DNA of 40,148 nt, taken from Chlamydiae bacterium CG10_big_fil_rev_8_21_14_0_10_42_34 (lineage in GTDB: Bacteria; Chlamydiota; Chlamydiia; Chlamydiales; SM23-39). This document shows, in pieces, positions 2,826 through 39,562 of this stretch. The stretch covers positions 1-40,148 of the forward strand of contig PFAD01000019.1 in NCBI GenBank assembly GCA_002773795.1, read 5' to 3'. Below the pieces are notes generated by a model. It did not search any database and had not been told where the DNA came from. It worked only from the letters and a program-made list of their open reading frames with translations. The translations under genes and the position numbers were made by a program. Every line of letters starts with the position of its first letter. Within the stretch, counting starts at the first letter, position 1.

Positions 2826-2832
2826 GAGACCC

Positions 2833-3591: not shown

Positions 3592-3599
3592 AAAGAAAC

Positions 3600-3629
3600 A
3601 TTATGGGATCTAAGGTGAAATCTTCTCAA
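3600..3629 (-). promoter_or_regulatory. Sigma-70-like promoter for the HExxH gene and kdoO
   Basis: Read on the minus strand there is TTGAGA (3624-3629), an 18-base spacer, and CATAAT (3600-3605). Each box differs from consensus at one position. The -10 box ends eight bases before the ATG at 3591, which predicts an almost leaderless mRNA. This is a pattern match only. Confidence 0.5.
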
Positions 3630-3687
3630 TCCTTTCTAGAAAATAGAAAATGCGTTACCATCTGTCCGATTTTGAGGACTATATAGT

Positions 3688-6258: not shown

Positions 6259-6299
6259 TTTTTTAAAAGGAAATCAACAACGAACTTTCGAGATTCTTT

Positions 6300-13959: not shown

Positions 13960-14592
13960 GTGATATTTTCAAACCGATTTAGCGATCTTACAAAAGCAAT
14001 TGAAACATGTCTTTATTTTTCGGAAGAAAACCAAATTTCCGAAGAAAATGCTTTTTATCAAGCTCTTGAAATGATCGAAACTACTCGTTCACAAAACGGA
14101 ATTGTTTACGTGATTGGTAATGGGGGAAGCGCTGGAATTGCGTCTCACTTTAGTACAGACCTCATTAAGTCTCTTCAAATTCCTTCGCAAACACTTTACG
14201 ACTCTAATTTAATGACGTGTCTTTCCAACGATTATGGCTACGATACAGTTTTCAGTTATCCTCTTGAAAAACTGCTAAAACCCCAAGATCTCTTAGTGGC
14301 CATCAGCAGCTCGGGGAAATCTCCTAATATCATCAAAGGTGTGCAAGCTGCTATCTTAAGAAAAGCGTCGGTATTTACACTCAGTGGGTTTTCTGAACAA
14401 AATCCTTTGAAAAAACTCGGCAACCTAAATTATTGGGTAGACCGATGCGACTACGGCCTTGTAGAAACCTCCCATTTTTTCCTCCTACACACACTCATTG
14501 ACTTATGGAATGAAAACGCACCTAAGGAAGCAAAACATGCAAAAATCGTTGGAAACACCGACGCAAAAGATCAAATCTCTGCAAGAAATTGA
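13960..14592 (+). CDS. SIS-domain phosphosugar isomerase, GmhA-like
   Basis: This 210-residue protein resembles sedoheptulose-7-phosphate isomerase (GmhA), which starts NDP-heptose synthesis. The phosphosugar loop GNGGSAG is at 53-59, followed by HFSTDL, SNDYGYD and AISSSGKSPNI. Near the end ETSHFFLLH carries the region of the catalytic His. Aligned by eye to E. coli GmhA, the base Glu65 is replaced by Asp67, which may mean altered substrate or activity. The start is GTG at 13960 with GAGGG just upstream. The 3' end overlaps the HldE-like gene by 56 bases, which points to a joint role in making an activated heptose or similar sugar. Confidence 0.85.
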   Translation: MIFSNRFSDLTKAIETCLYFSEENQISEENAFYQALEMIETTRSQNGIVYVIGNGGSAGIASHFSTDLIKSLQIPSQTLYDSNLMTCLSNDYGYDTVFSYPLEKLLKPQDLLVAISSSGKSPNIIKGVQAAILRKASVFTLSGFSEQNPLKKLGNLNYWVDRCDYGLVETSHFFLLHTLIDLWNENAPKEAKHAKIVGNTDAKDQISARN

Positions 14593-16084
14593 AGAAATTC
14601 TTGGTGCAGATCGCAGTATTGGCCTAAAAATAGTTCAATGCCATGGCGTTTTTGACCTTCTCCACCCTGGCCACATCCGCCACTTTCGAACAGCGAAAGA
14701 GCAGGGAGATAAGTTAATTATCACCATTACGCCGGATCGGTTTGTCAACAAAGGCCCAGGTCGTCCTGTTTTCACTGAAGCCTTGCGCTTAGAAGCTATT
14801 GCTGCTTTACAAGATGTTGATTATGTAGTCCTCAATGATTCTCCTGATGCAGTTTCAATCATAAAAAAAATCAAACCCTCTATCTACGTCAAAGGAAATG
14901 AGTACAGCGATCACGGCTCTGATATTACAGGAAAAATTTCTGAAGAGGCAAAAGCTGTAGAATCTGTTGGAGGTAAAATTTTCTATACTGACGACATCGT
15001 ATTTAGCTCATCTTCTCTTCTGAACCGCTATTTTGATAACATTCCACCTGAAGTAACGCGCTTTCTCAATAGTTTAAAAGCAACTTATACTGACAAAGAC
15101 ATCATTAAAAAAATTGAAAGTCTAACCAACTTAAACGTACTTGTAATTGGCGATGCAATCATCGATGAATATCAATTTGTTTCTCCTCTAGGCCAATCGG
15201 GGAAAGGGCTTCACATGGCAGCTCGCTGTCTTGAAAAAGAAATCTACTTGGGCGGTTCTTTAATTATTGCAAACCATATTGCTCAATTTACTCCTAACGT
15301 AACCTTGCTTACAGCACTCGGCAAAGATTGCCCTCATATGAATTTCATAAGGCAAAATTTAGATCCTTCTATAAAAACTAAATTTACCTATCTCGACGAC
15401 ACGACAACGCTGACAAAAAAACGGTATGTCCTCAAAGATGGAAAAACTCTATCAAAGCTTTTTGAATGTTATTCAGGTCAAGATGAGGCTTTAGAACCTC
15501 GTCAAACCTTTGAGATAATTCAATTTTTACAAGAAAATGCACATAAATATGACTTAGTTTTAGTTTGTGATTTCGGCAATGAATTTACCAATCCTCAGAT
15601 CATTGATGCCATTGCAGATCTCCCCAATTTCCTCGCCCTTAACACACAAACTAATAGCGGAAATCGCGGTTATAATGTGGTCACAAATTACAGAAGAGCC
15701 GATTTCATCTCCCTAAATGAACCAGAATTTCGCCTCGCAGCACATGATAAAAGGAGCTCACTAGAGGGAATTGCGGCAGACATTTGTCAAATCATGACCT
15801 GCAAAAACATCTCGATCACTCGAGGTGTTGACGGCGTTTTTTCTTACACCTCTGATGGCAATTCAATGCAAATTCCGGCATTTGCGACAAATAGCGTAGA
15901 CAGAATCGGTGCGGGTGATGCCTTTTTGTCCCTTTGCTCATTATGCCTAGCGAATCATTACTCTCCCGCCTTATCAAACTTCATTGGTTCGATAGCTGCT
16001 GCAATGAGCGTACAAATGGTGGGAAACCAAGAGTCCATAAAAAAAACCTCTCTTTGTAAATTTATTACCCGATTGATGAAATGA
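14537..16084 (+). CDS. Nucleotidylyltransferase-PfkB kinase fusion (HldE-like, domains in reverse order)
   Basis: This 515-residue fusion has an N-terminal cytidylyltransferase-type domain (CHGVFDLLHPGHIRHF near 35-50, the HxGH nucleotide site; about 20-175). Its C-terminal part is a PfkB/ribokinase-type kinase (VIGDAIIDEY near 206; the catalytic GAGD at about 458-461). E. coli HldE has the same two activities with the kinase first, so the order here is swapped. The expected role is to phosphorylate a sugar phosphate at C1 and convert it to an NDP-sugar. The frame is open to 14498, but the ATG at 14537 has AAGGAAG before it and starts where the homology starts. The stop overlaps the E1-alpha start as ATGA. 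No separate GmhB phosphatase is visible. Confidence 0.87.
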   Translation: MQKSLETPTQKIKSLQEIEEILGADRSIGLKIVQCHGVFDLLHPGHIRHFRTAKEQGDKLIITITPDRFVNKGPGRPVFTEALRLEAIAALQDVDYVVLNDSPDAVSIIKKIKPSIYVKGNEYSDHGSDITGKISEEAKAVESVGGKIFYTDDIVFSSSSLLNRYFDNIPPEVTRFLNSLKATYTDKDIIKKIESLTNLNVLVIGDAIIDEYQFVSPLGQSGKGLHMAARCLEKEIYLGGSLIIANHIAQFTPNVTLLTALGKDCPHMNFIRQNLDPSIKTKFTYLDDTTTLTKKRYVLKDGKTLSKLFECYSGQDEALEPRQTFEIIQFLQENAHKYDLVLVCDFGNEFTNPQIIDAIADLPNFLALNTQTNSGNRGYNVVTNYRRADFISLNEPEFRLAAHDKRSSLEGIAADICQIMTCKNISITRGVDGVFSYTSDGNSMQIPAFATNSVDRIGAGDAFLSLCSLCLANHYSPALSNFIGSIAAAMSVQMVGNQESIKKTSLCKFITRLMK

Positions 16085-17034
16085 CCCAAACACAACAATC
16101 TTTATCCTTAGATCTTTATCGAGAAATGGTTCGGATTCGGATGATCGAAGAGGCCATTGCTGAAAAATACCCAGAGCAGAAAATGCGCTGTCCTGTCCAC
16201 TTAAGTATTGGGCAAGAAGCTGTAGCCGTTGGTGTATGTAAAGCGGCTTTACATACAGATTATCTCATCAGCAACCATCGCGCGCATGCCCATTATCTTG
16301 CAAAAGGGGGAGACCTCAAAGCAATGATTGCTGAAATTTATGGGAAAAGCACAGGTTGCTGCTCTGGAAGGGGCGGCTCGATGCATTTAGTAGACAAATC
16401 CGTTGGTATGTATGGCTCCACTCCAATCGTAGGAGGAAGCCTTCCAGTAGGTGTTGGCTTAGCATTTGCGACTCACTTAAAACAAGAAAAAAACGTCACG
16501 CTTATTTTCTTTGGCGAAGGAAGCACTGAAGAGGGAGTTTTTGCTGAAAGCCTTAACTTTGCTGCGCTCAAAAAGCTTCCCGTCTTGTTTGTTTGTGAAA
16601 ATAACTTTTATTCCGTCTACTCTCCACTTGAAGTCAGACAACCTCAAGAGCGAGATCGAGCAGCTATTGCACGTGCGCACGGAATACTTGCAAAAACTGG
16701 GAACGGAAATGACGTTGAAGAGGTCCATCTACTTGCACAGGAGGCCATCCAATCCATTCGCGAAGGAAAAGGTCCAGTTTTTCTTGAATTTACAACATAT
16801 CGACACAGGGAACATTGCGGGCCTAACTTTGATAACAATATAGGCTATCGAACAGAAGATGAGTTCCATTCTTGGGAAAAGAAATGCCCAATTCAGTTTC
16901 AATCTCAAAGAGTTCAGGCCGATATAAATGGCATCCGATCCTCGATCCTTACTGAGATCGAAGAAGCCTTTGCTTATGCAGAGAAAAGTCCTCTTCCACA
17001 ATTTGACATTGAGAAAGAATCCCCCTATGCCTAG
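16081..17034 (+). CDS. TPP-dependent dehydrogenase E1 component, alpha subunit
   Basis: This 317-residue protein belongs to the E1-alpha family of 2-oxoacid dehydrogenases, which bind thiamine pyrophosphate. The TPP site runs from GEG (145-147, Glu in place of the usual Asp) to ENN (173-175). HLSIGQEAVAVG and SNHRAHAHYL are further family marks. YRHREHCGPN near 240 replaces the phosphorylation-loop sequence of mitochondrial PDH. With the beta gene it should form a heterotetramer. No lipoyl E2 or E3 gene is present, so a role in sugar synthesis, with a sugar accepting the TPP-bound carbon unit, is more likely than energy metabolism. That is inference from context. The ATG overlaps the HldE-like stop. 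Confidence 0.88.
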   Translation: MTQTQQSLSLDLYREMVRIRMIEEAIAEKYPEQKMRCPVHLSIGQEAVAVGVCKAALHTDYLISNHRAHAHYLAKGGDLKAMIAEIYGKSTGCCSGRGGSMHLVDKSVGMYGSTPIVGGSLPVGVGLAFATHLKQEKNVTLIFFGEGSTEEGVFAESLNFAALKKLPVLFVCENNFYSVYSPLEVRQPQERDRAAIARAHGILAKTGNGNDVEEVHLLAQEAIQSIREGKGPVFLEFTTYRHREHCGPNFDNNIGYRTEDEFHSWEKKCPIQFQSQRVQADINGIRSSILTEIEEAFAYAEKSPLPQFDIEKESPYA

Positions 17035-18100
17035 ACAACTTAAATTCCATGAAGCTATCTTAGAAGCAACCGATCAAAAAATGGCTCAAGATCCCAATGT
17101 TTATCTGATGGGGCTTGGCGTACCGGATCCTAAAGGGATTTTTGGGACAACCTCTGGGCTAGAAAAAAAGTATGGTCCAGGTCGCGTTATGGACATGCCC
17201 ACATCGGAAAATGCCATGACAGGCATTGGGATTGGATCTGCTATCCTCGGAATGCGCCCCATTATGTCCCACCAACGTGTCGATTTTTTCCTTCTAGCAC
17301 TCGATCAACTCATCAACAATGCAGCTAAATGGAACTATATGTTTGGCGGGCAGATGAAAGTTCCACTAGTAATCCGCCTTATTATTGGTAGAGGTTGGGG
17401 ACAAGGCCCTCAGCACTCACAATCACTACACAGCTTTTTCGCACATATTCCTGGGCTTAAAGTTGTGATGCCATCTACTCCTTACGATGCAAAGGGGCTG
17501 TTGATCTCCGCGATTGAAGATGACAATCCCGTCGTTTTTCTCGAACATCGATGGCTCCATAATACATTTGGGGATGTCCCCCAAGAAATGATCCGCGTCC
17601 CCATCGGCAAAGCAAAAATTGTCCGACAAGGAACGGACGTAACCATCGCAGCAACATCACACATGGTTTTAGAGGCTCTAAAAGCGTCAAAATGGCTCGA
17701 AAAAGATGGAATTTCAGCTGAACTCATTGATCTTCGAACAATCCGTCCTCTAGACAAAGAGACACTTCTCACTTCTGTCAAAAAAACAGGCCGGCTCATC
17801 GTTGCTGATCCCGACTGGAAAACGGTCGGAACTTCTTCTGAAATCCTCGCGATCGCAACGGAAGAGGCGTTTTCTTACCTCAAATCTGCGCCAGTTCGCG
17901 TAGCATATCCAGACAGACACACACCAACAAGCTGGGCCCTTGCCAACCACTTCTATCCAACAGCAAAACATATCGCTATAGAAGCTTTAAAAATGATGGG
18001 AAAACCGACCCATGCTCAATCACTGATTGAAGAACTCCTCAAACAGTGCACAGAAGAACCTCTGGATGTTCCAGATAAAGAATTTACAGGACCCTTTTAA
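17027..18100 (+). CDS. TPP-dependent dehydrogenase E1 component, beta subunit
   Basis: This 357-residue protein is the partner of the preceding alpha subunit and has a transketolase-like pyrimidine-binding domain and C-terminal domain. PTSENAMTGIGIGSAILG carries the conserved Glu that activates TPP. GPQHSQSLHSFFAHIPGL is the signature of E1-beta subunits, and the C-terminal domain begins near VPIGKAKIVRQG. The frame is open upstream to 16928 inside the alpha gene. The start at 17027 fits the family, has a purine-rich GAGAAAGA before it, and overlaps the alpha stop by eight bases. Sixteen bases separate it from the next gene. Confidence 0.89.
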   Translation: MPRQLKFHEAILEATDQKMAQDPNVYLMGLGVPDPKGIFGTTSGLEKKYGPGRVMDMPTSENAMTGIGIGSAILGMRPIMSHQRVDFFLLALDQLINNAAKWNYMFGGQMKVPLVIRLIIGRGWGQGPQHSQSLHSFFAHIPGLKVVMPSTPYDAKGLLISAIEDDNPVVFLEHRWLHNTFGDVPQEMIRVPIGKAKIVRQGTDVTIAATSHMVLEALKASKWLEKDGISAELIDLRTIRPLDKETLLTSVKKTGRLIVADPDWKTVGTSSEILAIATEEAFSYLKSAPVRVAYPDRHTPTSWALANHFYPTAKHIAIEALKMMGKPTHAQSLIEELLKQCTEEPLDVPDKEFTGPF

Positions 18101-18116: not shown

Positions 18117-19106
18117 ATGAAAAAAGTACTCGTCATCGGTAGCAATTCTTTCTCTGGCAGTGATTTTGTCGACCTGCTTCTTGAAGAGGGAAAATATAAC
18201 GTAATCGGAGTAAGCAGATCACCAGAAAAAAGCGCACTGTTTCTCCCTTATAAATCACGAAATTCCAAAAACTTCCAATTCCATCAAATTGATCTTAATA
18301 AAGATCTTCCGCGCTTAGCTGAGCTGCTCGATGAATTTCGCCCCGATTACATCGTGAATTTTGCAGCGCAAAGTGAAGTGGCTCCTAGTTGGGAAAATCC
18401 TCATCATTGGTTCCAAACGAACGCGGTCGCTCTCACCCAATTTGCCAACCTCATTAAAGACACCACCTACCTAAAAAAGTATGTCCACATTTCCTCTCCT
18501 GAAGTCTATGGCACATGTGTTGGAAATATCTTAGAAACAGCGCCATTAAACCCAAGCACTCCCTATGCTGCATCGAAAGCTGCAGGAGATCTGTCGTTAT
18601 TTACTTTTGCGAAAAATTTCCCATTCCCCCTTGTCATGGTGCGCGCAACAAATGTCTACGGTGCACACCAACAGCTTTTTAAAATCATTCCCCGTTCTGC
18701 CATCTATCTAAAACTTGGGAAAACAATTGAACTCCACGGCGGAGGAACTGCAGTTAAATCCTATATCCATATCAGAGATATCTCGCGCGGTGAACTTGCC
18801 GTAATGGAAAAAGGGCGCACCGGTGAAATTTACCACTTATCTCCTGATCAAGGAGTCGCGGTAAGCGATGTAGTTCGTACAATTTGCGAAAAAATGAACG
18901 TTTCCTTTTCCGCCTCCACACAAACTGTGGCAGAGCGGCTCGGACAAGACAAAGCCTATACAATCGATTCTACGAAGGCTCGAACTGAATTAAACTGGAA
19001 ACCCATCATCACTTTGGCTGAAGGGATAGGACAAACTGTTTCGTGGGTAGAAAAAACCTTCGACGAAATAGCAAAACAACCTTTAGTCTATATCCACAAG
19101 GAATAA
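18117..19106 (+). CDS. NDP-sugar 4,6-dehydratase-like SDR
   Basis: This 329-residue extended SDR has an N-terminal Rossmann motif in a slightly modified form (GSNSFSGSDF). The active-site stretch is HISSPEVYG, where Ser-Pro-Glu takes the place of the Thr-Asp-Glu of dTDP-glucose 4,6-dehydratase or the Ser/Thr-x-Glu of GDP-mannose dehydratase. PYAASKAAGD gives the Tyr/Lys pair. RATNVYGAHQQLFKIIPR resembles the RmlB-type sugar site. A 4,6-dehydratase is therefore likely, but the replaced Asp, the usual acid, leaves an epimerase possible. The product would be a 4-keto-6-deoxy sugar, the usual precursor of deoxy and branched sugars. Ribosome site AAGG. It is followed four bases later by a methyltransferase. 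Confidence 0.8.
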   Translation: MKKVLVIGSNSFSGSDFVDLLLEEGKYNVIGVSRSPEKSALFLPYKSRNSKNFQFHQIDLNKDLPRLAELLDEFRPDYIVNFAAQSEVAPSWENPHHWFQTNAVALTQFANLIKDTTYLKKYVHISSPEVYGTCVGNILETAPLNPSTPYAASKAAGDLSLFTFAKNFPFPLVMVRATNVYGAHQQLFKIIPRSAIYLKLGKTIELHGGGTAVKSYIHIRDISRGELAVMEKGRTGEIYHLSPDQGVAVSDVVRTICEKMNVSFSASTQTVAERLGQDKAYTIDSTKARTELNWKPIITLAEGIGQTVSWVEKTFDEIAKQPLVYIHKE

Positions 19107-19110
19107 CGCA

Positions 19111-19764
19111 ATGGAAATTGATCTACTCATCAACTACCCACGTGCAAAGCGTAATGTGCTAGAACGGGGTGCTACAAAAACAGAAGAAGACCGCCAAATC
19201 GCTCGCCAATTTGGGAAAGATTTCTTCGACGGAGATCGACGCCACGGATACGGAGGATTCAATTACCATCCCCGTTTTTGGCAACCTGTTGTGCCAACTT
19301 TCCAAAAGCACTTTAACCTCAACTCAGAGAGCAAAGTACTCGACGTAGGCTGCGGCAAAGGATTTATGCTCTACGATTTTTCCCAAATCATTCCCAATAT
19401 TCAAGTGAAAGGAATCGATGTTTCCACCTATGCGATTGAGCATGCAATCGATGCTGTAAAACCTCTTGTTCAAGTAGCTGATGCGAGAAAACTCCCCTTT
19501 AACGACAAAGAATTTGATCTCGTAATTTCCATTAACACAGTCCACAATCTGGAAAAACCCGATCTAGCAAAAGCCCTACAAGAAATCGAAAGAGTTTCAA
19601 AAGGAAGTAGCTTTATTACCGTCGATGCGTACCGCAATGATGAAGAAAAAGAGTTGATGTACGCGTGGAATTTAACTGCGAAAACAATCATGCATGTCGA
19701 TGAATGGAAGGCTTTTTTCAGAGAAGTTGGATATACCGGCGACTACTACTGGTTTATCCCATGA
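19111..19764 (+). CDS. SAM-dependent methyltransferase (class I)
   Basis: This 217-residue class I methyltransferase has a clear motif I (VLDVGCGKG near 75-83), then GIDVS (motif II) and a DLVISINTVHNL motif IV/post region. The N-terminal extension, with YPRAKRN and FGKDFFDGDRRHGYGG, is unusual for a general methyltransferase. I recall this extension in proteins that sit beside E1-alpha/beta and GmhA-like genes in surface-sugar clusters of other phyla, but this is memory and not checked. It probably acts on a sugar or sugar nucleotide of this pathway. AGGA lies eight bases before the ATG. The stop overlaps the next start as ATGA. Confidence 0.8.
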   Translation: MEIDLLINYPRAKRNVLERGATKTEEDRQIARQFGKDFFDGDRRHGYGGFNYHPRFWQPVVPTFQKHFNLNSESKVLDVGCGKGFMLYDFSQIIPNIQVKGIDVSTYAIEHAIDAVKPLVQVADARKLPFNDKEFDLVISINTVHNLEKPDLAKALQEIERVSKGSSFITVDAYRNDEEKELMYAWNLTAKTIMHVDEWKAFFREVGYTGDYYWFIP

Positions 19765-20810
19765 AAACACTTGCTGCAATCTTAGTCCAATTAAATGCCC
19801 CTCTAGAAATTGTTGAGCTTGAAATCCCTTCTTTAAAACGGGGCCAAGTTCTTGTTCAAATAGCCTATAGTGGGTTGTGCCATACGCAACTTAATGAGTG
19901 GAAAGGTTCCAAAGGACCCGACCCATTTCTTCCTCACACTCTAGGGCACGAAGGCTCTGGGATTGTTTTAGAAGTGGGAGAAGGGGTTACAAAAGTCAAA
20001 CCGGGGGATCACGTTGTCCTCTCATGGTTAAAAGGGACAGGACTTGATGCGCCCAGCACAACTTACCAAGGACCTAACATCACAGTTAATTCAGGCGCCA
20101 TTAGTACTTTTCTAGAAAAAGCGGTTATTTCTGAAAATCGGCTTATTCCTATTCCCTCCGAAATCCCTTTGAAAGAGGCAGCTTTGCTTGGTTGCGCTAT
20201 TCCTACGGGAGCAGGCGTTGTCATGAATAACATGCAAATCAAAGAAGGGCAATCTGTCGTTATTTTTGGCGTTGGAGGAATCGGATTAAGCGCAATTTTA
20301 GCAGCAAAACATGCGAAAGCCAACCCCATTATTGCCATTGACATCCGATCCGAAAAGCTTGAAAAAGCTGAGTTGTTGGGAGCAACCCACATTGTCAATT
20401 CTCTGGATTGTAACCCTTTAACAAAAATATCAGAAATCCTCGGGAATAACGGCTCAGACTTTGCCCTTGAATCAGTGGGTAGAAAAGAGGTCATGGAAAT
20501 GGCCTTTCAGTGCGTAAGACCGTTTGGTGGATTATGCGTACTTGCTGGCAATCTCCCCAAGGGAGAAAAAATTCAAATCGATCCATTTGATCTCATTAAA
20601 GGGAAAAAAATTATTGGCACATGGGGAGGTGGAGCAAATATTGATCGCGATGTTCCCCTTTTCGCTAATATTTTTCTAAAAGATGCAAACTTTCTAAAAC
20701 CAATGATTAGTCATGAGGTCAAACTTTCAGAAATCAATGAACTTATGAGTGCCCTAAACAACGGACAAATTGCTCGCGGACTCATCGGATTTGGAGGTGT
20801 ATGCATTTAG
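19761..20810 (+). CDS. Zinc-type alcohol dehydrogenase-like oxidoreductase (MDR family)
   Basis: This 349-residue medium-chain dehydrogenase shows the catalytic zinc ligands Cys40 (SGLCHTQ), His63-Glu64 (LGHEGSG) and probably Cys145 (LLGCAIPTG). The NAD(P) site is GVGGIG at 170-175. The four-cysteine loop that binds the structural zinc in classical enzymes is absent: the region around 88-112 has no cysteine. The substrate is unknown; a sugar alcohol or keto-sugar in the same pathway is likely from context. The frame is open to 19704, but the family starts at MKTLAAILV. That start gives the ATGA overlap with the methyltransferase gene. It overlaps the SDR gene by ten bases. Confidence 0.87.
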   Translation: MKTLAAILVQLNAPLEIVELEIPSLKRGQVLVQIAYSGLCHTQLNEWKGSKGPDPFLPHTLGHEGSGIVLEVGEGVTKVKPGDHVVLSWLKGTGLDAPSTTYQGPNITVNSGAISTFLEKAVISENRLIPIPSEIPLKEAALLGCAIPTGAGVVMNNMQIKEGQSVVIFGVGGIGLSAILAAKHAKANPIIAIDIRSEKLEKAELLGATHIVNSLDCNPLTKISEILGNNGSDFALESVGRKEVMEMAFQCVRPFGGLCVLAGNLPKGEKIQIDPFDLIKGKKIIGTWGGGANIDRDVPLFANIFLKDANFLKPMISHEVKLSEINELMSALNNGQIARGLIGFGGVCI

Positions 20811-21604: not shown

Positions 21605-22384
21605 ATGCAACAGACTCTTTTAAATAAAGACTTACGCAAAGAAATTGTAGAAATGATTTTTCGTGCGAAAGAAGGGCACATCCCCAGCTCATTTTCCATC
21701 ATCGATATCATTCACCATTTGTACTCAAAAGTACTTAAATTTGATCCAAATAACCCAAAGTGGGAAGAACGCGATTACTTTATCTTAAGTAAGGGACATG
21801 GGGGAGTCGCCCTTTACGTAGTGCTCCATAAATTTGGTTTTTTGAATCAAGAACACATTCTCTCTTACAGCTTAAAAGGGGGAATTTTAGGGGGACACCC
21901 AGATTCAACGAAAGTGCCTGGAGCAGAAGCCTGCACAGGTTCATTAGGACACGGCTTTCCAACTGCCGCAGGCGTTGCTTTAGGACTAAAAATTCAACAG
22001 AAACCAAACCGTGTTTACGCACTTTTAGGCGATGGAGAATGCAACGAAGGGACCATTTGGGAAACTGCCTTAGTAGCAGCAAAACAGCGCCTATCCAACT
22101 TAACAGCAATCATCGACTTTAACGGGTCTGCAGCTCAAATCTTGCCCGTTGACCCACTTGCAGACAAATGGAGAGCATTTGGCTGGAATGTCGTAGAAAT
22201 TGATGGACATGATGAGAATCAATTAGAGCTTGCTTTTTCTGCCCCTCGAAAAGAAGGTCCTCTCGCAGTGATTGCGCACACTACAAAAGGAAAAGGGGTA
22301 AGCTTTATTGAAGGACACGGAAAATGGCACCATAAAATCCCTACTCACGAAGAGCTAAAACTGATATTCGAGGAACTGAAATGA
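21605..22384 (+). CDS. Transketolase, N-terminal (TPP-binding) subunit
   Basis: This 259-residue protein matches the N-terminal half of transketolase. GHIPSSFSIID near 24-34 and SKGHG near 62-66 supply conserved histidines. The TPP diphosphate/Mg site runs from GDG (142-144) to Asn173. HPDSTKVPGAEACTGSLGHG is a family-typical stretch. The gene ends with an ATGA overlap to the C-terminal half, so the enzyme is split in two subunits, as in archaea and some sugar clusters. It would move a two-carbon ketol unit between sugars, here probably to lengthen or reshape a sugar for the glycan. AGGA precedes the ATG. Confidence 0.9.
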   Translation: MQQTLLNKDLRKEIVEMIFRAKEGHIPSSFSIIDIIHHLYSKVLKFDPNNPKWEERDYFILSKGHGGVALYVVLHKFGFLNQEHILSYSLKGGILGGHPDSTKVPGAEACTGSLGHGFPTAAGVALGLKIQQKPNRVYALLGDGECNEGTIWETALVAAKQRLSNLTAIIDFNGSAAQILPVDPLADKWRAFGWNVVEIDGHDENQLELAFSAPRKEGPLAVIAHTTKGKGVSFIEGHGKWHHKIPTHEELKLIFEELK

Positions 22385-23328
22385 AAAAACTACGACAAGA
22401 ATTTGCCGATACAATGTTAGAAGTTGGCAATACCGACCCGAATCTCGTCGTGATGGTGGGAGATATTAGCCATGGAATTTTGCAACCTTTTGCAAAAGCG
22501 CACCCTCACAGATACTTTAACGTAGGAATTTGTGAGCCTACCATCGTAAATATGGCAGCTGGCGTTGCTAAAACTGGCCTTATCCCCGTCGTTCATACAA
22601 TCGCACCTTTCATCATCGAAAGAGCCTATGAGCAAATTAAACTCGATTTTGGCTATCAACAACTAGGCCTCAACCTTATTAGCGTAGGCTCAGCTTTTGA
22701 CTACGCGCAATTGGGCTGTAGCCACCACTGTTATAATGATATCTCACTTATGAGCCATTTCAAAAAGGCTCAAATTTTTTTTCCTTCAAGTGCGATGGAA
22801 TTGAATATCCTTTTTAAAGCTGTATACAACAATGGCGGCATTAACTACTTCAGACTCCCAGAAAAACCCCATGGGATCACTCTTTCTCCAGAAAGCATTG
22901 AAGTTGGCAAGGCAATTAAAGTAACTACTGGAGAAGACCTAACAATTGTTGTCATCGGACCACAGCTTAAAACCGCTTTTGATGCTGCCGTTGCGTTAAA
23001 AAAGGGCGGAATTACAACAGAAATTCTTTACTACCCGACGATTAAACCATTCGATCAGGATTCCTTAATCGCTAGCGCAACTAAGACAAAAAGGGTCCTC
23101 GTAGTTGAAGAAGCCTCTGCTCACGATGGGATGTTCAACTATTGCTTAAGGGCCCTCATGCACACCCCAAATATAGAGTATGCACAAATAGCCATTGACG
23201 ACTTCGTCCACCAATATGGGACATATGAAGAACTTTGCGATGAGTTAGGATTTTCCGTGTCTGGTATATTGCGTACAGTTGATGAAAAATTCAACTTGAA
23301 GCTCAATCTAATAGCTCAAAGGGCTTAA
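22381..23328 (+). CDS. Transketolase, C-terminal (pyrimidine-binding) subunit
   Basis: This 315-residue protein is the second half of the split transketolase. FNVGICEPTIVNMAAGVA contains the conserved Glu52 that activates the TPP aminopyrimidine. The segment GCSHHCYNDI takes the place of the GPTHH region, and a C-terminal transketolase domain starts near residue 180. Alone it has no complete active site; it needs the preceding subunit. Together they make about 574 residues, shorter than housekeeping transketolase (about 660), and resemble the small forms of sugar clusters. Start and stop overlap or nearly touch their neighbours, so it is translated with them. Confidence 0.89.
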   Translation: MKKLRQEFADTMLEVGNTDPNLVVMVGDISHGILQPFAKAHPHRYFNVGICEPTIVNMAAGVAKTGLIPVVHTIAPFIIERAYEQIKLDFGYQQLGLNLISVGSAFDYAQLGCSHHCYNDISLMSHFKKAQIFFPSSAMELNILFKAVYNNGGINYFRLPEKPHGITLSPESIEVGKAIKVTTGEDLTIVVIGPQLKTAFDAAVALKKGGITTEILYYPTIKPFDQDSLIASATKTKRVLVVEEASAHDGMFNYCLRALMHTPNIEYAQIAIDDFVHQYGTYEELCDELGFSVSGILRTVDEKFNLKLNLIAQRA

Positions 23329-26676: not shown

Positions 26677-27984
26677 ATGAGTTTCACTTTAATGGGAAGA
26701 ATTGGGAATCGATACTCCAAAACGTTATGTATCGCTAGAGCGACACTTCACATTCTCGCAGTTTTTTGCTCCATTCTTTTTTTCCCAATCAGCTGGCTTC
26801 TTAAACTATTGGGGATTCGGGTATTTGTTTCAGGAACAGCGATAGGGCACTTCACAATCGAACCTGAAACCTACTTAAAAGAGCAGAGACTAGGAAGAAT
26901 TCCAAAATACAAATCTATTTTATTCCCTCCCTTCAAACCGGTTATTTCTCGACACCCATGGAAGCTCAATACTTGTAATGACTATCTTACTCACCTATGG
27001 AAACAACGATTTTGGGTGATCACAAATCCCCTTATAGCATTTCTCCTGTACCCCATACTAGGTGGACCCTATCTGAAAAAACCATTATTTTTTCGCAAAC
27101 ACTGGCTGTTTCATCAAAATCAATATTGGGAGCTAAAAGCTGGAAATCGACTTTTTGATATTCAAGCTGAGTACTACAAAAAATTCCCCACATTTAGCCC
27201 AGCTGAATCAATGTTAAAAATCCCAACAGCTGATGAAGAAAAGGGAAGAAAAGTCCTGAGTCAGTGGGGAATTGGCAAGGAGGACTGGTTTGTCTGTTTT
27301 TATGCAAGAGAACCTGGCTTTTATGATTTTAGAGATGCTCAAGTACAAGGACTACGTTACGCGGACATCGACACATACCACTTAGCATTACAAGAAATCT
27401 CACAAAGGGGCGGCTGGTGCATTCGAATGGGATCGCCAAATACGAAACCTCTTTCAACCAAACTATCACAAATTCCTCGCATTATCGATTATCCCCACAC
27501 CGAGTTCGTTTCCCCCTTTATGGACGTGTTTCTTTCAGCCAAGTGCCGCTTTTTTTTAGGAGGGGCAAGTGGAATCACCCTTTTACCCGGGTTATTTGGA
27601 AATCCAAGTGTTGTGGCAAATCTTGTTCCCGTTAATGTGCTCCCTCCTTACCCAAACGATATAGGCATTCTTAAACTCCATTATTCGCAAAAGAAAAAAC
27701 GACTCCTTACATTCCCAGAAATTTACAAAACAAGACTTGGAATGTCTCACGAAAACCGTGATTTCGAAAAGGCACAAATTGATCTCATCGATAATACAGA
27801 TGAAGAAATTCACGAGGCTGTAAAAGAAATGCTAGATCGCTTGGAAAATAGATTTATTGAATCCGACCATCACCCACAACTACAAAAACGATTTATGGAT
27901 AGGATACCGAGCGAAGCTTGGAGTAAAAATTGCTGCGCCCGCATAGGAGCACATTTTTTAAATAAATACGCTGATTTATTTTGA
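26677..27984 (+). CDS. TIGR04372-family glycosyltransferase
   Basis: This 435-residue protein has a hydrophobic segment near 20-45 and then a soluble part. FYAREPGFYDFRDA (near 205-218) followed by DIDTYHLALQEI and GGWCIRMG are the stretches by which I recognise the TIGR04372 putative glycosyltransferase family, found in O-antigen and surface glycan clusters. FLGGASGITLLPGLFGNP resembles the GT-B donor site. Donor and acceptor are unknown. The ATG at 26677 has only a weak purine stretch before it; ATG at 26692 is an alternative. It is the first gene of a second plus-strand run and is divergent from the ABC exporter. Its stop overlaps the next start by one base. Confidence 0.78.
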   Translation: MSFTLMGRIGNRYSKTLCIARATLHILAVFCSILFFPISWLLKLLGIRVFVSGTAIGHFTIEPETYLKEQRLGRIPKYKSILFPPFKPVISRHPWKLNTCNDYLTHLWKQRFWVITNPLIAFLLYPILGGPYLKKPLFFRKHWLFHQNQYWELKAGNRLFDIQAEYYKKFPTFSPAESMLKIPTADEEKGRKVLSQWGIGKEDWFVCFYAREPGFYDFRDAQVQGLRYADIDTYHLALQEISQRGGWCIRMGSPNTKPLSTKLSQIPRIIDYPHTEFVSPFMDVFLSAKCRFFLGGASGITLLPGLFGNPSVVANLVPVNVLPPYPNDIGILKLHYSQKKKRLLTFPEIYKTRLGMSHENRDFEKAQIDLIDNTDEEIHEAVKEMLDRLENRFIESDHHPQLQKRFMDRIPSEAWSKNCCARIGAHFLNKYADLF

Positions 27985-28874
27985 TGGATAAAACTAAAAC
28001 AAAAACTTTTGTCATTGGAAGCGCAGGCTTTTTGGGAAAGCATTTTCTTGAGAGCTACCGTAATGATGAACCTAAAACGATAGGAACTCAGCACTTCTCT
28101 TCGGATAAGCCCTTCTATTTTAACCTGGAAAAACCAGATATTAGAGCACTTCCTTTAAACGAAGGATATACACATGCGTTGATTGCCGCTTCGACGGGAC
28201 TTTTTGTCGAGTGTGAGAAACAGTATGAAAAAACAGCTGTTGGCAATGTTTACGGAACGCTTCAACTGGCCAAAAGCTTAGCAGAAGTGAATATTACCCC
28301 TATCTTATTTTCTTCATCATATGTTTTTGACGGCAACGATGGACAATACTCAGAAGAAAGTTTGATTAACCCCATCAATGGATATGGGCTTCAAAAAGCG
28401 GAAGTAGAAAAAAAAATTGACCACGTCTGCAAAGGAAATTACCTTCTTCTTCGCTTGAGCAAAGTATTTACACTTGCAAAAGGAGACGGGACTCTCCTCG
28501 ATGAAATTGTGCAAAAGCTAGTGTCTCAAAAAACTATTTTTGCCGCTCATGATCAGATTTTCACCCCCATTCTCATCGATGATGTAATTCGCATAACCCA
28601 GCACCTACAAGCTCTTAGAGCTACGGGATTATATCATATTTGCGGCACAGAAAACTGGTCTAGATACGACCTCACAAAAACCATTTCCAGCTTATTATCG
28701 AGTCCTCCCACAATCATACAGTCGATCTCTCTCGACGATCTTCCCGACAAAATAAAAAGACCGAAGAAAACAAATATGCTATGCCAAAAAGCGTTAAACA
28801 CAGGCATTAGTCCTCCAAAAACTGTGACTGAATGTATTCAAATCATGCAAAACTTATGGGTAGAACATGTCTAG
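27984..28874 (+). CDS. RmlD-like NAD(P)-dependent sugar reductase (extended SDR)
   Basis: This 296-residue SDR has the cofactor loop GSAGFLGKHF and the catalytic Ser in SSSYVFDG, the hallmark of dTDP-4-dehydrorhamnose reductases. The Tyr/Lys pair is in NGYGLQKAEVEK. Next to EESLINPINGYG it matches the RmlD-type order. It probably reduces a 4-keto NDP-sugar to the finished deoxy sugar. The rest of an Rml set (RmlA, B, C) is not in this window, although the 4,6-dehydratase-like gene at 18117 could supply a substrate. The start is the ATG at 27984, overlapping the preceding TGA. It overlaps the next gene by eight bases. Confidence 0.8.
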   Translation: MDKTKTKTFVIGSAGFLGKHFLESYRNDEPKTIGTQHFSSDKPFYFNLEKPDIRALPLNEGYTHALIAASTGLFVECEKQYEKTAVGNVYGTLQLAKSLAEVNITPILFSSSYVFDGNDGQYSEESLINPINGYGLQKAEVEKKIDHVCKGNYLLLRLSKVFTLAKGDGTLLDEIVQKLVSQKTIFAAHDQIFTPILIDDVIRITQHLQALRATGLYHICGTENWSRYDLTKTISSLLSSPPTIIQSISLDDLPDKIKRPKKTNMLCQKALNTGISPPKTVTECIQIMQNLWVEHV

Positions 28875-33610: not shown

Positions 33611-34552
33611 ATGACTGATCTCATTTTGAGCGTATCTCTTCCAACTTATAATCATGCCATCTACTTGCCAGAGAGAATCCCATCTATCCTTGCAGCAATG
33701 CCTCAAAATGCCGAATTAATCATTGTAGACGATGGATCGACTGATAACAGCGAGGAGATCATTAGATCCTTTGCAGAGCAAGATTCAAGAATCATTTTCA
33801 TGAAAAACGAAAAAAATCTCGGGGTTATTAAATCACTTCACAAAATTACGGCAACTGCGCGCGGAAAGTACATGTCTTTCTTATCAGCTGATGATTATAT
33901 CCTCCCTGAATATTTTTCTAAGATCCTACACTTTGCAGAAAAATATCCTAGTTTTGCAATTTATGTATCAAACTTTGGGTATTCAAATGATGTGATTCCA
34001 AAGAGCCACGATGAGATTAAATCTGACTTCTTACTTCCAAACCCTAAAGGGCCCTCTTTCTTTGGCCCAAAACAAACTATTCACCTATTTTCTCATACAG
34101 CATTTTGGGTGCCAGCACACTGCTCCATTATTCAAAGAGAGACCCTCCTTCAACTCGGCGGCTTTCGAGAAGAGTTTAAACACAATACTGATTGGTTTTT
34201 GTTTCATGCTGCTGCATTAATTGGAGGAGTTGCATACCTCCCAGAAACTCTTGCTGTATGGCGGCTTGACAACAAAGGATATACCTCGCAAACAACTAAC
34301 CATGATCAGAATCTTTTTAATGTTCAAATTAGTATTTTTAATTATTTGAGAAAATCAGAGAGGAAAGATCTTAGACCTCTTTTTGCAAGATCGGGGGTAT
34401 TAAGGGGTGTTCTTAAACAGCGATTTTTTTACTTTTTATTTCGTCCTGTCTATTGGGACTTTCTTCTATTTAGCTGTATTAGATATATCAGAAATTCTTG
34501 GAAGAAATTGCGCGCAAAATTCAGCACATCCCTTTCATTTTCCCACCATTAA
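33611..34552 (+). CDS. GT2 family glycosyltransferase
   Basis: This 313-residue GT-A glycosyltransferase has SVSLPTYNHAIYL, the nucleotide site IIVDDGSTDNSEEI (near 36-49) and FLSADDYILPE in the DxD position. It is a paralog of the protein encoded at 30106: both carry the TDWFLFH/CDWFLFH stretch, followed by AYLPE or AYIPS. It has no strong ribosome site (an A-rich leader only). Its 3' end overlaps the convergent SDR gene by 32 bases. It ends this plus-strand run. Acceptor and donor unknown. Confidence 0.86.
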   Translation: MTDLILSVSLPTYNHAIYLPERIPSILAAMPQNAELIIVDDGSTDNSEEIIRSFAEQDSRIIFMKNEKNLGVIKSLHKITATARGKYMSFLSADDYILPEYFSKILHFAEKYPSFAIYVSNFGYSNDVIPKSHDEIKSDFLLPNPKGPSFFGPKQTIHLFSHTAFWVPAHCSIIQRETLLQLGGFREEFKHNTDWFLFHAAALIGGVAYLPETLAVWRLDNKGYTSQTTNHDQNLFNVQISIFNYLRKSERKDLRPLFARSGVLRGVLKQRFFYFLFRPVYWDFLLFSCIRYIRNSWKKLRAKFSTSLSFSHH

Positions 34553-35315
34553 CATGGAAGCATGATCCAGTAATCCAACTCGCTTCATCGCTTGCAAGAA
34601 ATAAAACAAGTGGAGAAATATCAACTCCCTGTCCCATTCTTCCTAACGGAATTTTCAACGCTTCTTTAGATCCCATTTCTCTTGCTACTTCTTCAGGAGG
34701 CAGATTTTTTTCACAAGAGATCTGCTGGACACTTTTATCCCATGAATCGGTTTCTACAGAACCCGGACAAACACAGTTAACCAAAATCTTCTCAGATGCG
34801 AGAAAATTAGAAAGATATTTGCTGAAATTAATGGTACTTGATTTCGTGCTCGTATAATGGGGGTTATAAAAACCGGGTTCAATTCCTGAAATGGAAGAGA
34901 TATTGATAATTCGAGGTGACTGGGAGACTTTTAAGTGAGGGATTGCTTCTTTGCAAAAATGAACCATGCTCATAACATTGAGTTCGAATGCATCGCGCCA
35001 ATTTTGGGCCTTCATGTCAAAAAAATCCCCAAATTGGGTGGCGCCTCCTACATTATTAACTAAAATATCTAGCCCGTTAAAATGTTGAACTGTATGAGCT
35101 ATTACTTTTTTAACATCTTCTTCTTTAGTGACGTCCGCCTGTACAGCTAAGACGCCACGTTTATTTTGAAGCTCTCTTAAGTCCTCAATACCTCTGGCAC
35201 AAATGGCAACCTGCGCTCCAGCATCAATAAATTTTTCTGCTATTGCTCTTCCGATTCCCTTCGACCCTCCGGTAATAAGGACCTTTTTTCCACTAAAATC
35301 AAAGCGGATTGTCAC
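34521..35315 (-). CDS. Classical short-chain dehydrogenase/reductase
   Basis: This 264-residue classical SDR has the cofactor loop ITGGSKGIG, NNVGG in the NNAG position, catalytic Ser in NISSISG, and Tyr/Lys in HYTSTKSSTINF. CFHVNGGKMKG closes the protein. It is likely an oxidoreductase of a sugar intermediate. The gene is the last of a three-gene minus-strand unit: it begins with a four-base overlap to the methyltransferase gene upstream. It is convergent with the GT2 gene, and no terminator was seen at the overlap. Confidence 0.85.
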   Translation of the reverse strand: MTIRFDFSGKKVLITGGSKGIGRAIAEKFIDAGAQVAICARGIEDLRELQNKRGVLAVQADVTKEEDVKKVIAHTVQHFNGLDILVNNVGGATQFGDFFDMKAQNWRDAFELNVMSMVHFCKEAIPHLKVSQSPRIINISSISGIEPGFYNPHYTSTKSSTINFSKYLSNFLASEKILVNCVCPGSVETDSWDKSVQQISCEKNLPPEEVAREMGSKEALKIPLGRMGQGVDISPLVLFLASDEASWITGSCFHVNGGKMKGMC

Positions 35316-35989
35316 TTAATTTTTCCTACGCCCACTCCAATCAAATAATGAGCCATTGGAGAAAATCCTGTGTGAACTACCTCATCATTCATCGAAAACA
35401 TAAAGACATTCGCGAATTCTTTTTGTAGAGCTTCCCTTAAAGTGTCTCCACTTTTGAGGTTAATATGCCCTTTTTGACTTCCTTCGCTCGCGTACTGGTG
35501 AGCCGTAATATTTGGGGTTCCCAAAATTAAGATCCCATCTTGATTCAAAGAACCTGCAATATTCGATACAAACTTCTCTTCCAAAGAAAAAGGGATATGT
35601 TCGATTACATCTAGAGCAAAAGCCGCATCAAATTGCCCCTTTACCGGAGATTCGGTCATGTCGTGAATGCTGTACGTACAGCGATCACCATAAGTATTTC
35701 TTTTTACAGCATCTTTGATCACTATGGGCTCAAAATCTATCCCATGAACTGAGTCGACAGACTGAAGTACAATCGGGGTACCAATTGAATCTCCACACCC
35801 CACTTCTAAAACACGTTTTTTCCCCACGAACATTTTAGAGCAAAACTTATAGCGAGAAAAAAGAAAGCACATGTGGCGAGGGTCGTTGCGCCAAATATGG
35901 CTAGTGTATGGGCCCATTACAACACCACCTTGAGAATTGTAAGTATCAAACTGCGTTTGATTTTGAGCTTCTTTTGCAATTGCTGTCAT
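35312..35989 (-). CDS. SAM-dependent methyltransferase (class I), paralog of the one at 28867
   Basis: This 225-residue class I methyltransferase has motif I VLEVGCGDSIG, GIDFEP and AFALDVIEHI. It shares GTPNITA, ASEGSQKGHINL and NDEVVHTGFSPMAHYLI with the protein encoded at 28867, so the two derive from one ancestor. Divergence is enough to suggest different targets. It sits between a C-methyltransferase-type gene (18 bases upstream) and an SDR gene (four-base overlap), forming one unit. It probably methylates a sugar in this glycan. Confidence 0.83.
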   Translation of the reverse strand: MTAIAKEAQNQTQFDTYNSQGGVVMGPYTSHIWRNDPRHMCFLFSRYKFCSKMFVGKKRVLEVGCGDSIGTPIVLQSVDSVHGIDFEPIVIKDAVKRNTYGDRCTYSIHDMTESPVKGQFDAAFALDVIEHIPFSLEEKFVSNIAGSLNQDGILILGTPNITAHQYASEGSQKGHINLKSGDTLREALQKEFANVFMFSMNDEVVHTGFSPMAHYLIGVGVGKIK

Positions 35990-36007: not shown

Positions 36008-37177
36008 TTAGTTTACTAATGGGATAAGAACTCTTCTTGGAGCCATCTCAGATATTTTCCCAAATATACTTCGAGTATTTTCTAAAGACGTCACGAGAAA
36101 ATTACTATTTTTTGGAATCGAACATTTTTTCACACATCTTACTGTTACTGGAACATTTTGATAACTAATTTGATCTTTTTGTTCATCATCATCAAGTATG
36201 CAGATAAGCTCGGAAAAATCTGTTTTCAAATGATAGCCCAATGTGGCCAACATTAAACTAGCCCCATACCCATAAATATTGTTTTCGAATTTTTTCAACT
36301 GTATGGATAACAAATCCATTTGCTTTGTGTAATTTTGAATCGCTTTCTCTATGCTTGCCTTTTTTTCAGCTACATCCACAGAAGGAGTGACTGTCGTTTT
36401 TCCTTTTCGGAAAGCGATCAACATAGCACCACCACAAGAACCTTGGCGATTGTATTCATGAGAAACATACTCTCCACCTATCTCAGCAATCAATCTTTGA
36501 AAGCTTGACAAATCAAAATAGTGGTAATGTTGGTGAAAAATCGCATCAAAGCGATTCGCTTCGATTAAATTTTCAAGACAAGGAATCTCAAAAACATACA
36601 ATGCATGCGGAGCCCCTTTTTCCAAAAGGGCGGTAAGCATTTCTCTCGGATTTGCAACATGCTCTAAAACATGTCTGCAAAAAATAAGATCTGGTAATAG
36701 CTCTTCTTTTCCAAAGTCTACTTTTTCTATGAACTGACCGAGAATCTTAACCCCATCGATAATTTGTCCATCTTGTAAAGAGCACACAGGGTCAACTACG
36801 CAACGTTTTTCTATATCAACTTTCTTTGCTAAATAAAGATCATTCCCACCTACATCGAGGAGAGAGTTGAAAGTTTGAGATCCTTTTATGCTAGAAAAGA
36901 AATTTAGAAAAAATTCTGAACCTAAACAAGCGGACTTGGAAAGGCTTGTCCGAAAAGAATATTCAGATGCCGTGTACAATAGTTCGGGAGAAAGCTGAAC
37001 TCCAAGCTGTACATGGCCACAATCATTACAAATCAAAAGGCGCTGATCAAAGTAGAGTATTTTAAGGGGATCATAGCAACCATACTTTTCCGTAAGAGGT
37101 AATTTAGGAAGGTCCCACAACAGAGCTAAATCGGAGTGATTACAAACACCGCACTTTTCAACAGTTCTTTTTTCCAT
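36008..37177 (-). CDS. Sugar C-methyltransferase-type protein (zinc-binding N-terminus)
   Basis: This 389-residue protein has the three-part layout of sugar C-methyltransferases such as those for mycarose-type sugars. The N-terminal zinc module has Cys9, Cys12, Cys50 and Cys53. The class I methyltransferase core has LLDVGGND near 107-114. The region CLENLIEANRFD and FHQHYHYFDL is highly typical. The C-terminal domain has IYGYGASLMLATLGYHL and an ILDDDEQK stretch. It would place a methyl branch on a keto-sugar nucleotide. It is the first gene of a minus-strand unit with a methyltransferase and an SDR gene. No clean promoter was seen at usual spacing. Confidence 0.85.
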   Translation of the reverse strand: MEKRTVEKCGVCNHSDLALLWDLPKLPLTEKYGCYDPLKILYFDQRLLICNDCGHVQLGVQLSPELLYTASEYSFRTSLSKSACLGSEFFLNFFSSIKGSQTFNSLLDVGGNDLYLAKKVDIEKRCVVDPVCSLQDGQIIDGVKILGQFIEKVDFGKEELLPDLIFCRHVLEHVANPREMLTALLEKGAPHALYVFEIPCLENLIEANRFDAIFHQHYHYFDLSSFQRLIAEIGGEYVSHEYNRQGSCGGAMLIAFRKGKTTVTPSVDVAEKKASIEKAIQNYTKQMDLLSIQLKKFENNIYGYGASLMLATLGYHLKTDFSELICILDDDEQKDQISYQNVPVTVRCVKKCSIPKNSNFLVTSLENTRSIFGKISEMAPRRVLIPLVN

Positions 37178-37424: not shown

Positions 37425-38327
37425 ATGAATAATAAATTGATGTTGGGGGGCAATATTTTTGGACACTTTGCTGACAAAAAACAGACTTCGACTCTTTTAG
37501 CAAAAGCAAAAAACCTGGGCATTACCGCGATTGATACAGCAGACGTCTATTCAAATGGTCTTTCTGAAGAATTTATTGGAGAAAACATTAAAACAAATAG
37601 AGAACAATGGTTTGTTGCTACAAAAGTGGGGCTGCAGTCACACGCTTCTCCAGAGGGTCTTGGGAGAAAAAACAACATCATTCAAAGAGTTGAAAATAGT
37701 TTAAAAAGGCTAAAAAGCGATTATATAGACCTATATCAAATACATCATTTCGACCCCTTAACACCTTTGGAAGAGACCCTAGAAGCATTTGAATTATTGG
37801 TAAAGCAAGGAAAAATCCTAGCAGCTGGAATTTCCAACTATAACCTAAATCATTTAAAGTTACTAAAAGAGGGCGACTCAAAGTGCATTAAATTCCACCA
37901 AATGCCACTAAACATCACCAATTTCAGCCAAACAAAACAGGTGCTATTTGAATCGACAAAACAAAACATTTCAATTCTAGCCTACTCAAGTCTAGTTCGT
38001 GGACTGTTCAATGAAAAATATATTTCAGGAGACATCCCTTCGGGTTCGAGAGCTTCAATAAGTAAGAACGTGCAAGCAGACTTAACTCCTGATTTTTTAT
38101 GCCGATTAGAAAAAACTGCCAAGTTGTGTAAAAACCATCAAGTTTCTTTACTTGACGCTGCTATTCAGTGGGTTGCTCAGCAACAAGATGTAAGGTGGAT
38201 AATTGTTGGCATTAGAGAGGTTGACCAACTTACATCTGTCAACCACGCAGCAGCAAATACGTTGCCCAAAACACTACTCAACGAACTGGAAGCTATTTGG
38301 TTAGGCTTTCGGCCTTTTAAAAAATGA
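37425..38327 (+). CDS. Aldo/keto reductase
   Basis: This 300-residue protein has the aldo/keto reductase catalytic tetrad: Asp37 and Tyr42 (AIDTADVYSNG), Lys67 (ATKVGL) and His107 (LYQIHHFD). GISNYNLNHL near 155-165 and the C-terminal WIIVGIREVDQL supply the NADPH-binding part. The barrel is complete. Substrate is unknown; relatives act on sugars, aldehydes or oxidised cofactors. It stands alone between a divergent C-methyltransferase and a convergent LhgO gene (overlap of 11 bases at the stops). A role in finishing a keto-sugar is possible but not shown. Confidence 0.88.
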   Translation: MNNKLMLGGNIFGHFADKKQTSTLLAKAKNLGITAIDTADVYSNGLSEEFIGENIKTNREQWFVATKVGLQSHASPEGLGRKNNIIQRVENSLKRLKSDYIDLYQIHHFDPLTPLEETLEAFELLVKQGKILAAGISNYNLNHLKLLKEGDSKCIKFHQMPLNITNFSQTKQVLFESTKQNISILAYSSLVRGLFNEKYISGDIPSGSRASISKNVQADLTPDFLCRLEKTAKLCKNHQVSLLDAAIQWVAQQQDVRWIIVGIREVDQLTSVNHAAANTLPKTLLNELEAIWLGFRPFKK

Positions 38328-39513: not shown

Positions 39514-39533
39514 ATTGCTCTTTTTAGCCACAA

Positions 39534-39562
39534 ATTTTGGGCAAGCGCCCATTCTTTGTCAA
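39534..39562 (-). promoter_or_regulatory. Sigma-70-like promoter for lhgO
   Basis: On the minus strand, a perfect TTGACA (39557-39562), 17 bases and CAAAAT (39534-39539). Expected start of transcription is about 14 bases before the ATG at 39513. This supports the shorter protein start. Confidence 0.55.

Follow-up and report, generated by a model that had tools for sequence, protein, structure and literature searches.

The question raised by this locus is which sugar is built with the help of the C-methyltransferase encoded at positions 36008 to 37177, and where on that sugar the methyl group would be placed. The DNA analyzed, hereafter the window, is an entire contig of 40,148 nucleotides belonging to a 1.68-Mb assembly of 21 contigs, the host being taken as a member of the Chlamydiae; its genes are designated below by their lowest coordinate. 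A preliminary description of the locus had proposed a three-domain enzyme adding a methyl branch to a keto-deoxy sugar. In the reading favored here, which is considered rather probable, the protein is a C-methyltransferase of the TylC3/TcaB9 fold, belonging to a separate clade and acting in a ThDP-dependent sugar-branching pathway, which would deliver a methylated branched sugar to an O-antigen-type glycan. An unusual branched sugar is probably a constituent of the surface glycan. This idea is now better supported than it had been in the preliminary description, mainly through genes that were not cited there (the ThDP carboligase genes 21605 and 22381 and the SDR gene 20801).

The open reading frame on the minus strand starts with ATG, encodes 389 amino acids and has exactly the coordinates given in the preliminary description. 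Pfam recognizes a PF08421 zinc module at residues 9-68 (36.4 bits for a cut-off of 31.3) and a PF13489 methyltransferase domain at residues 101-239 (46.6 bits for a cut-off of 27). The C-terminal domain, PF08484, stays under its cut-off in Pfam (13.5 versus 23.5 bits), and a PF08484 search of the organism's own genome did not match the protein. An AlphaFold model computed from a 17-row alignment (pLDDT 85.2, pTM 0.86) nevertheless aligns over residues 2-389 with MtmC (4rvd; Z 36.6, rmsd 2.8, 375 residues aligned) and over its full length with TcaB9 and KijD1 (Z 35.5-35.9), the best chain outside the TylC3/TcaB9 family reaching Z 17.7 over 195 residues. As the alignment with the three enzymes extends to residue 389, the C-terminal domain is present by fold. 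The three-domain assignment of the preliminary description therefore holds for the zinc module, the SAM core and the full-length fold, its third domain being justified by the fold match and not by the sequence score. The same three enzymes are the nearest PDB relatives by sequence (best 4rv9, E 2.1e-12), and the identity to solved TylC3-type enzymes amounts to 18-21% in the structure comparison. Only weak matches were returned by a plasmid search (20.6-25.8% identity among the best 20 of 107 records).

The SAM-binding residues on which the preliminary assignment depended are present in the core. The segment LLDVGGND aligns with IVEIGCND of TcaB9, D129-P130 with the acidic residue following the second strand, and the SAM motif is invariant in a four-row alignment of the clade defined below. 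In the 17-row family alignment, the zinc cysteines C9, C12, C50 and C53 are invariant, as are H173 and H217, and G110 and N112 of the SAM core are at least 90% conserved. The active-site residues Y76, H181, Y222, E224 and H225 of TcaB9 correspond to Y73, H173, F214, Q216 and H217, so that three of the five are kept (Y73, H173, H217) and two are changed (F214, Q216). H217 is the counterpart of H225, which we take to be the catalytic histidine of TcaB9; mutants Y222F, E224Q and H225N of that enzyme appear in PDB titles. Architecture, fold and the retained catalytic histidine support a predicted activity of SAM-dependent sugar C-methyltransferase, and the altered F214 and Q216 suggest that the reaction may differ from that of TcaB9.

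The family motif YHEH reads xHQH in 10/10 members of the clade to which the protein belongs, referred to as the HQH clade. These are two Chlamydiae (the window and L020), three Methylophilaceae (L032, L072, L073) and five Pelagibacterales (L074, L075, L076, L077, L078). In a 48-row tree of methyltransferase-profile rows, selected at E<1e-20 with at least 330 amino acids and without long runs of unread residues, they group into a single clade, whose branch measures 2.22 changes per column and receives 100/100 support. The F-for-Y change also occurs outside the clade, FHEH being found in L034-L038, L042, L044 and L048. The idea that the E-to-Q change is unique to the clade had to be rejected, as a C-methyltransferase of another clade (L091 9314-10573, genome G077) carries YHQH through an independent Glu-to-Gln change. 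A single clade forced on all 11 Q-bearing rows was likewise rejected (p-AU 0.001). The HQH clade is therefore defined by the tree and not by the letter alone.

Members of the clade are rare. At E<=1e-50 they were detected in 2/232 Chlamydiae genomes (the order and the phylum searches each cover 232 genomes), in 3/187 genomes of the family of the Methylophilaceae carrier and in 5/397 genomes of the Pelagibacterales, the order of the Pelagibacteraceae carrier. The HQH methyltransferase was not found in two congeneric genomes with a completeness of 90% and 84%, which suggests that the gene was acquired by transfer or is frequently lost. The assembly of the window also encodes a canonical YHEH paralogue, clipped by the start of contig C5. 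The HQH clade is a rare, separate branch of a known TylC3/TcaB9 kind of enzyme and not a new kind of system.

The genes of the window relevant to the present analysis are collected in Table 1.

Table 1. Coordinates of the C-methyltransferase and of the sugar-related genes of the window
Feature	Coordinates	Strand	Remarks
Extended SDR/epimerase	11974..12966	+	Recurrent in HQH loci
SIS-domain (GmhA-like) sugar-phosphate isomerase	13960..14592	+	
HldE-like fusion	14498..16084	+	Reverse order: nucleotidyltransferase, then PfkB kinase
ThDP E1-alpha-like subunit, extra copy	16081..17034	+	GEG instead of GDG
ThDP E1-beta-like subunit	16928..18100	+	
4,6-dehydratase-like extended SDR	18117..19106	+	203 bits vs RmlB equivalog cut-off of 365
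Class I methyltransferase, kept in branching cassettes	19111..19764	+	Type fused to YerE-like enzyme in L032 and L072
Zinc alcohol dehydrogenase (ADH)	19704..20810	+	Relatives adjoin split transketolase in Chlamydiae loci
SDR20801	20801..21592	+	With HQH clade in 9/10 loci
Split transketolase, N-terminal ThDP-binding subunit	21605..22384	+	GDG...DFNG motif kept
Split transketolase, C-terminal subunit	22381..23328	+	
RmlD-like reductase	27981..28874	+	TTG start; 111 bits vs RmlD equivalog cut-off of 224
FabG-like SDR	34521..35315	-	Overlaps methyltransferase 35312; third gene of minus-strand run
Class I SAM methyltransferase	35312..35989	-	Next gene downstream of the C-methyltransferase; 42% identical relative adjoins YerE-like gene of L020
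HQH-clade C-methyltransferase	36008..37177	-	Zinc module, SAM core and C-terminal domain of nucleotide-sugar-binding type
Aldo/keto reductase (AKR)	37425..38327	+	PF00248, 193.5 bits; divergent from C-methyltransferase

The contig begins with a sigma-54 fragment. Positions 1857-7541, at the edge of the glycan cluster, hold a Kdo hydroxylase, a topoisomerase I with a SWIB domain and a Wzy_C/O-antigen ligase. A sugar nucleotidyltransferase and glycosyltransferases are also carried and, together with the Kdo hydroxylase and the Wzy_C ligase, they identify the setting as an O-antigen-type glycan cluster. At the other end, positions 38317-39552 encode an L-2-hydroxyglutarate oxidase (551 bits for a cut-off of 299), a 52% identical relative of which is located on the HQH contig of L020. 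Four open reading frames of 252-435 amino acids (23331-24281, 26677-27984, 2833-3591 and 31966-32826) display no Pfam match over cut-off; the product of the one at 31966 shares 38% identity with a relative in L020.

Between 16081 and 23328, the E1-alpha/E1-beta pair is followed by the 4,6-dehydratase-like SDR, the class I methyltransferase, the zinc ADH, SDR20801 and the two transketolase subunits. E1-alpha 16081 scores 281.6 bits for a cut-off of 393.85 in the nearest PDH family, and the three relatives examined read GDG at its GEG position; E1-beta 16928 barely reaches the cut-off of the PDH-beta subfamily (321.1 versus 321). A housekeeping origin of this pair and of the split transketolase was rejected because other E1 and transketolase copies are encoded elsewhere in the assembly, on contigs C13 and C12. 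The YerE-like profile gave no match in the window. AKR 37425 is a candidate branch reductase through its analogy to the AKR Pau7 (see below), and its position divergent from the methyltransferase may be a coincidence. The 4,6-dehydratase-like SDR is located where the preliminary description had placed it, at 18117; the RmlD-like reading frame begins at 27981 and not at 27984. The roles proposed there for the two enzymes, supplying and finishing the sugar, are not sustained by their scores, both well under the equivalog cut-offs.

The neighborhoods of the 10 HQH loci were scored against those of 33 control loci carrying other family members, 17 originating from a separate search and 16 from Chlamydiae. 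The profiles of recurring neighbor genes used for these counts (YerE, SDR and others) were built from HQH loci, and their scores consequently favor them. Loci from one bacterial group are non-independent, and among the controls L080 and L081 have a single transketolase in common, L036 nearly duplicates L037, and the contigs of L035, L046, L047, L087, L092, L093 and L094 are shorter than 10 kb. A ThDP carboligase was found in all ten HQH loci versus 10 of the 33 controls (Fisher p 9.6e-5), within 6 kb in nine loci and at 13.6 kb in the window, a distance exceeding the 10-kb flank given to the controls. A YerE-like enzyme was detected in seven HQH loci (L020, L032, L072, L073, L074, L075, L078) versus 1/33 controls (p 2.8e-5). 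With a threshold of E<1e-80, SDR20801 was detected in nine versus 0/33 (p 1.8e-8), L076 missing this threshold and L077 passing it narrowly (6e-81). The split transketolase is present in four HQH loci (window, L020, L074, L076), as is an E1-type pair or subunit (window, L072, L073, L077).

Linkage is tight in six loci (L032, L072, L074, L075, L077, L078). The methyltransferase gene overlaps the YerE-like gene, or lies at most 10 bp from it, in L032, L072 and L075, and the SDR is at most 4 bp from the methyltransferase gene in L074, L075, L077 and L078. Linkage is loose in the window, where the methyltransferase is encoded on the opposite strand, at the above distance from the split transketolase. 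The extended SDR/epimerase type of 11974 recurs in L020, L032, L072, L074, L076 and L077. An acetaldehyde dehydrogenase and DmpG-type and HpcH-type aldolases belong to the same gene run in L032 and L072, and DmpF/DmpG-type genes are found near the HQH gene in L075. At L032 3827-6418 and L072 10797-13367, a single open reading frame combines the YerE-like enzyme with a 19111-type class I methyltransferase domain.

The association was also examined on the scale of genomes. At E<=1e-80, the SDR20801 profile matched four of the five HQH genomes versus 1/392 others among 397 Pelagibacterales genomes (p 2.4e-8), the underlying alignment including three of the four best-scoring Pelagibacterales loci, so that the scores lean their way. 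The sole non-HQH genome with SDR20801 at this threshold (G543, L116 7877-16004) holds a cassette of about 8 kb composed of the SDR, a YerE-like enzyme, a split transketolase, an ADH and a 19111-type methyltransferase, and no C-methyltransferase was found. SDR20801 therefore accompanies ThDP branching, and the HQH enzyme is associated with the two together. These counts support a linkage of the HQH C-methyltransferase to ThDP carboligases known or proposed for branched sugars. Such a linkage of a ThDP enzyme or split transketolase to a C-methyltransferase was not described among the titles and abstract openings of the open library searched. A point against the favored reading is that glycan clusters are generally rich in sugar enzymes, as illustrated by the controls with a ThDP carboligase.

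Within Chlamydiae, split transketolases of the window type are encoded by 15/232 genomes as short open frames scoring 305.9-435.7 bits, separated by a clear gap from the other transketolase matches, which reach at most 203.4 bits and are nearly all full-length. A zinc ADH adjoins the split transketolase in 8/8 Chlamydiae loci inspected, out of 12 obtained.

The pathway proposed can be summarized as follows. The zinc and SAM domains of the methyltransferase would hold the cofactor, and the C-terminal domain a nucleotide-activated keto-sugar. His217 would deprotonate the carbon beside the ketone, and this carbon would then attack the methyl group of SAM. Branching would start from a ketone generated by a 4,6-dehydratase or by the zinc ADH 19704. 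The ThDP carboligase adding a carbon side chain to this ketone would be the split transketolase 21605/22381, possibly along with the E1 pair 16081/16928, and the ketone of the side chain would then be reduced by SDR20801 or by AKR 37425. The substrate of the methyltransferase would arise in this branching pathway or feed it; the order of the steps is likewise inferred. The expected product is a branched sugar that carries a methyl group, either on its ring or on its side chain, and belongs to an O-antigen-type glycan. Precedents exist for several of these steps. A review lists three ThDP classes tied to the branching of sugar ketones, YerE-like decarboxylases, E1-type alpha-keto-acid dehydrogenases 2 and, as a proposal, split transketolases, and mentions that side-chain ketones may later be reduced or methylated (PMC12247030). 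In paulomycin, Pau7, an AKR, reduces the ketone of the side chain (PMC4753412). The YerE-like ErwE is described in the review as preferring 4-hydroxy-2-oxo acids (PMC12247030), which fits the presence of DmpG-/HpcH-type aldolases close to the methyltransferase gene of L032 and L072. A more specific version can be put forward tentatively, although it is more doubtful: the HQH clade would represent a new type of sugar C-methyltransferase, methylating the ThDP-made side chain at the carbon beside the acyloin ketone and not on the ring, and SDR20801 would reduce this ketone. Methyl-branched side chains would then be the product of a mobile cassette of two steps, one half of which is the methyltransferase, and this cassette would have spread among marine bacteria and intracellular Chlamydiae.

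Other explanations must be weighed against this pathway. An enzyme acting like TylC3 would simply methylate C-3 (or C-5) of an NDP-4-keto-6-deoxyhexose, leading to a virenose- or mycarose-like sugar and leaving the ThDP genes to another sugar of the same glycan. The fold and the catalytic histidine are those of 3-C-methyltransferases, the window holds the 4,6-dehydratase-like 18117 and the RmlD-like 27981, and canonical C-methyltransferases are also found near split transketolases (e.g. L034, L041, L043, L044, L080, L082). The long and fully supported HQH branch with its two altered active-site residues, and the tracking of YerE-like enzymes and SDR20801, nearly absent from the controls, nevertheless make this somewhat improbable. 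The altered residues could instead mean that C-methylation was lost, leaving an inactive protein or an O-methyltransferase, since the equivalents of Y222 and E224 are gone. This is regarded as distinctly unlikely: the fold is kept, the zinc cysteines, H173, H217 and, within the clade, the SAM motif are invariant, and a motif fixed in all ten members is under selection. The FHEH relatives and the one YHQH relative in other clades, moreover, indicate that the family tolerates each of the two changes on its own.

The remaining alternatives displace the role of the ThDP enzymes or the point at which methylation takes place. The split transketolase could form a higher ketose phosphate (e.g. octulose phosphate), to be converted by the SIS isomerase and the HldE-like enzyme into an NDP-octose devoid of any ThDP branch, on which the C-methyltransferase would act. 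Lincomycin biosynthesis uses such an octose route. The SIS and HldE-like genes adjoin the ThDP genes of the window (13960-16084), and HldE-like genes recur in L032, L072, L074 and L076. YerE-like enzymes, a class acting on ketones, stand in for the transketolase or occur alongside it in most HQH loci, however, and the zinc ADH adjacent to the transketolase in Chlamydiae fits the formation of a ketone preceding branching, so that the octose route appears improbable. Methylation of the alpha-keto-acid donor before ThDP ligation, in the manner of MrsA, would accord with the possible donor-making genes in the L032 and L072 runs and near the gene in L075, and with the acceptance of 4-hydroxy-2-oxo acids by ErwE (PMC12247030). 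It is judged very unlikely in view of the sugar-nucleotide C-terminal domain of TcaB9 and KijD1 kept in the fold, of the partial match to MrsA (Foldseek TM-scores of 0.35 and 0.39), and of the Pfam scans, in which no DmpG/HpcH-type aldolase was recognized among the window reading frames.

The favored pathway connects the ThDP-dependent branching of sugars with a sugar C-methyltransferase clade that has received little study, and indicates split-transketolase branching cassettes in Gram-negative glycan clusters. Should it be correct, these split transketolases would be ready candidates for in vitro characterization, and unusual branched sugars would be components of the O-antigen-type glycans of some Chlamydiae.

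Compared to known systems, the protein shares with TylC3, MtmC, TcaB9 and KijD1 the full-length three-domain fold, the zinc cysteines, the SAM motif and Tyr73, His173 and His217. It differs by F214 and Q216 in place of their Tyr and Glu, by its separate clade, by its length of 389 amino acids versus 416-426 for the PDB chains and by a PF08484 score under cut-off. Virenose of Coxiella, which the preliminary description had offered as a parallel, involves the same broad C-methyltransferase family in an intracellular bacterium, and the resemblance ends there: CBU_0691 is canonical by its 44% identity to TylCIII, as published (PMC3539893), whereas the identity of the present enzyme to TylC3-type structures is far lower and its clade is another one. 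A virenose-like main reading was rejected on these grounds. The yersiniose and erwiniose systems (YerE/ErwE) are approached by the relatives of the enzyme that adjoin YerE-like enzymes (L032, L072, L075) and by the aldolases, near the gene in some loci, that may make 4-hydroxy-2-oxo acids; the window differs in holding a split transketolase and an E1 pair, with no YerE-like profile match. The split transketolases of miharamycin and amipurimycin also consist of N- and C-terminal subunits accompanied by an oxidoreductase, and are proposed to transfer a hydroxyacetyl branch onto a keto-sugar (PMC12247030). The 13 split transketolases named in that review all originate from Streptomycetes, and none, according to it, has been characterized in vitro (PMC12247030). 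Those described here reside, in contrast, in glycan-type clusters of Chlamydiae and of other Gram-negative bacteria.
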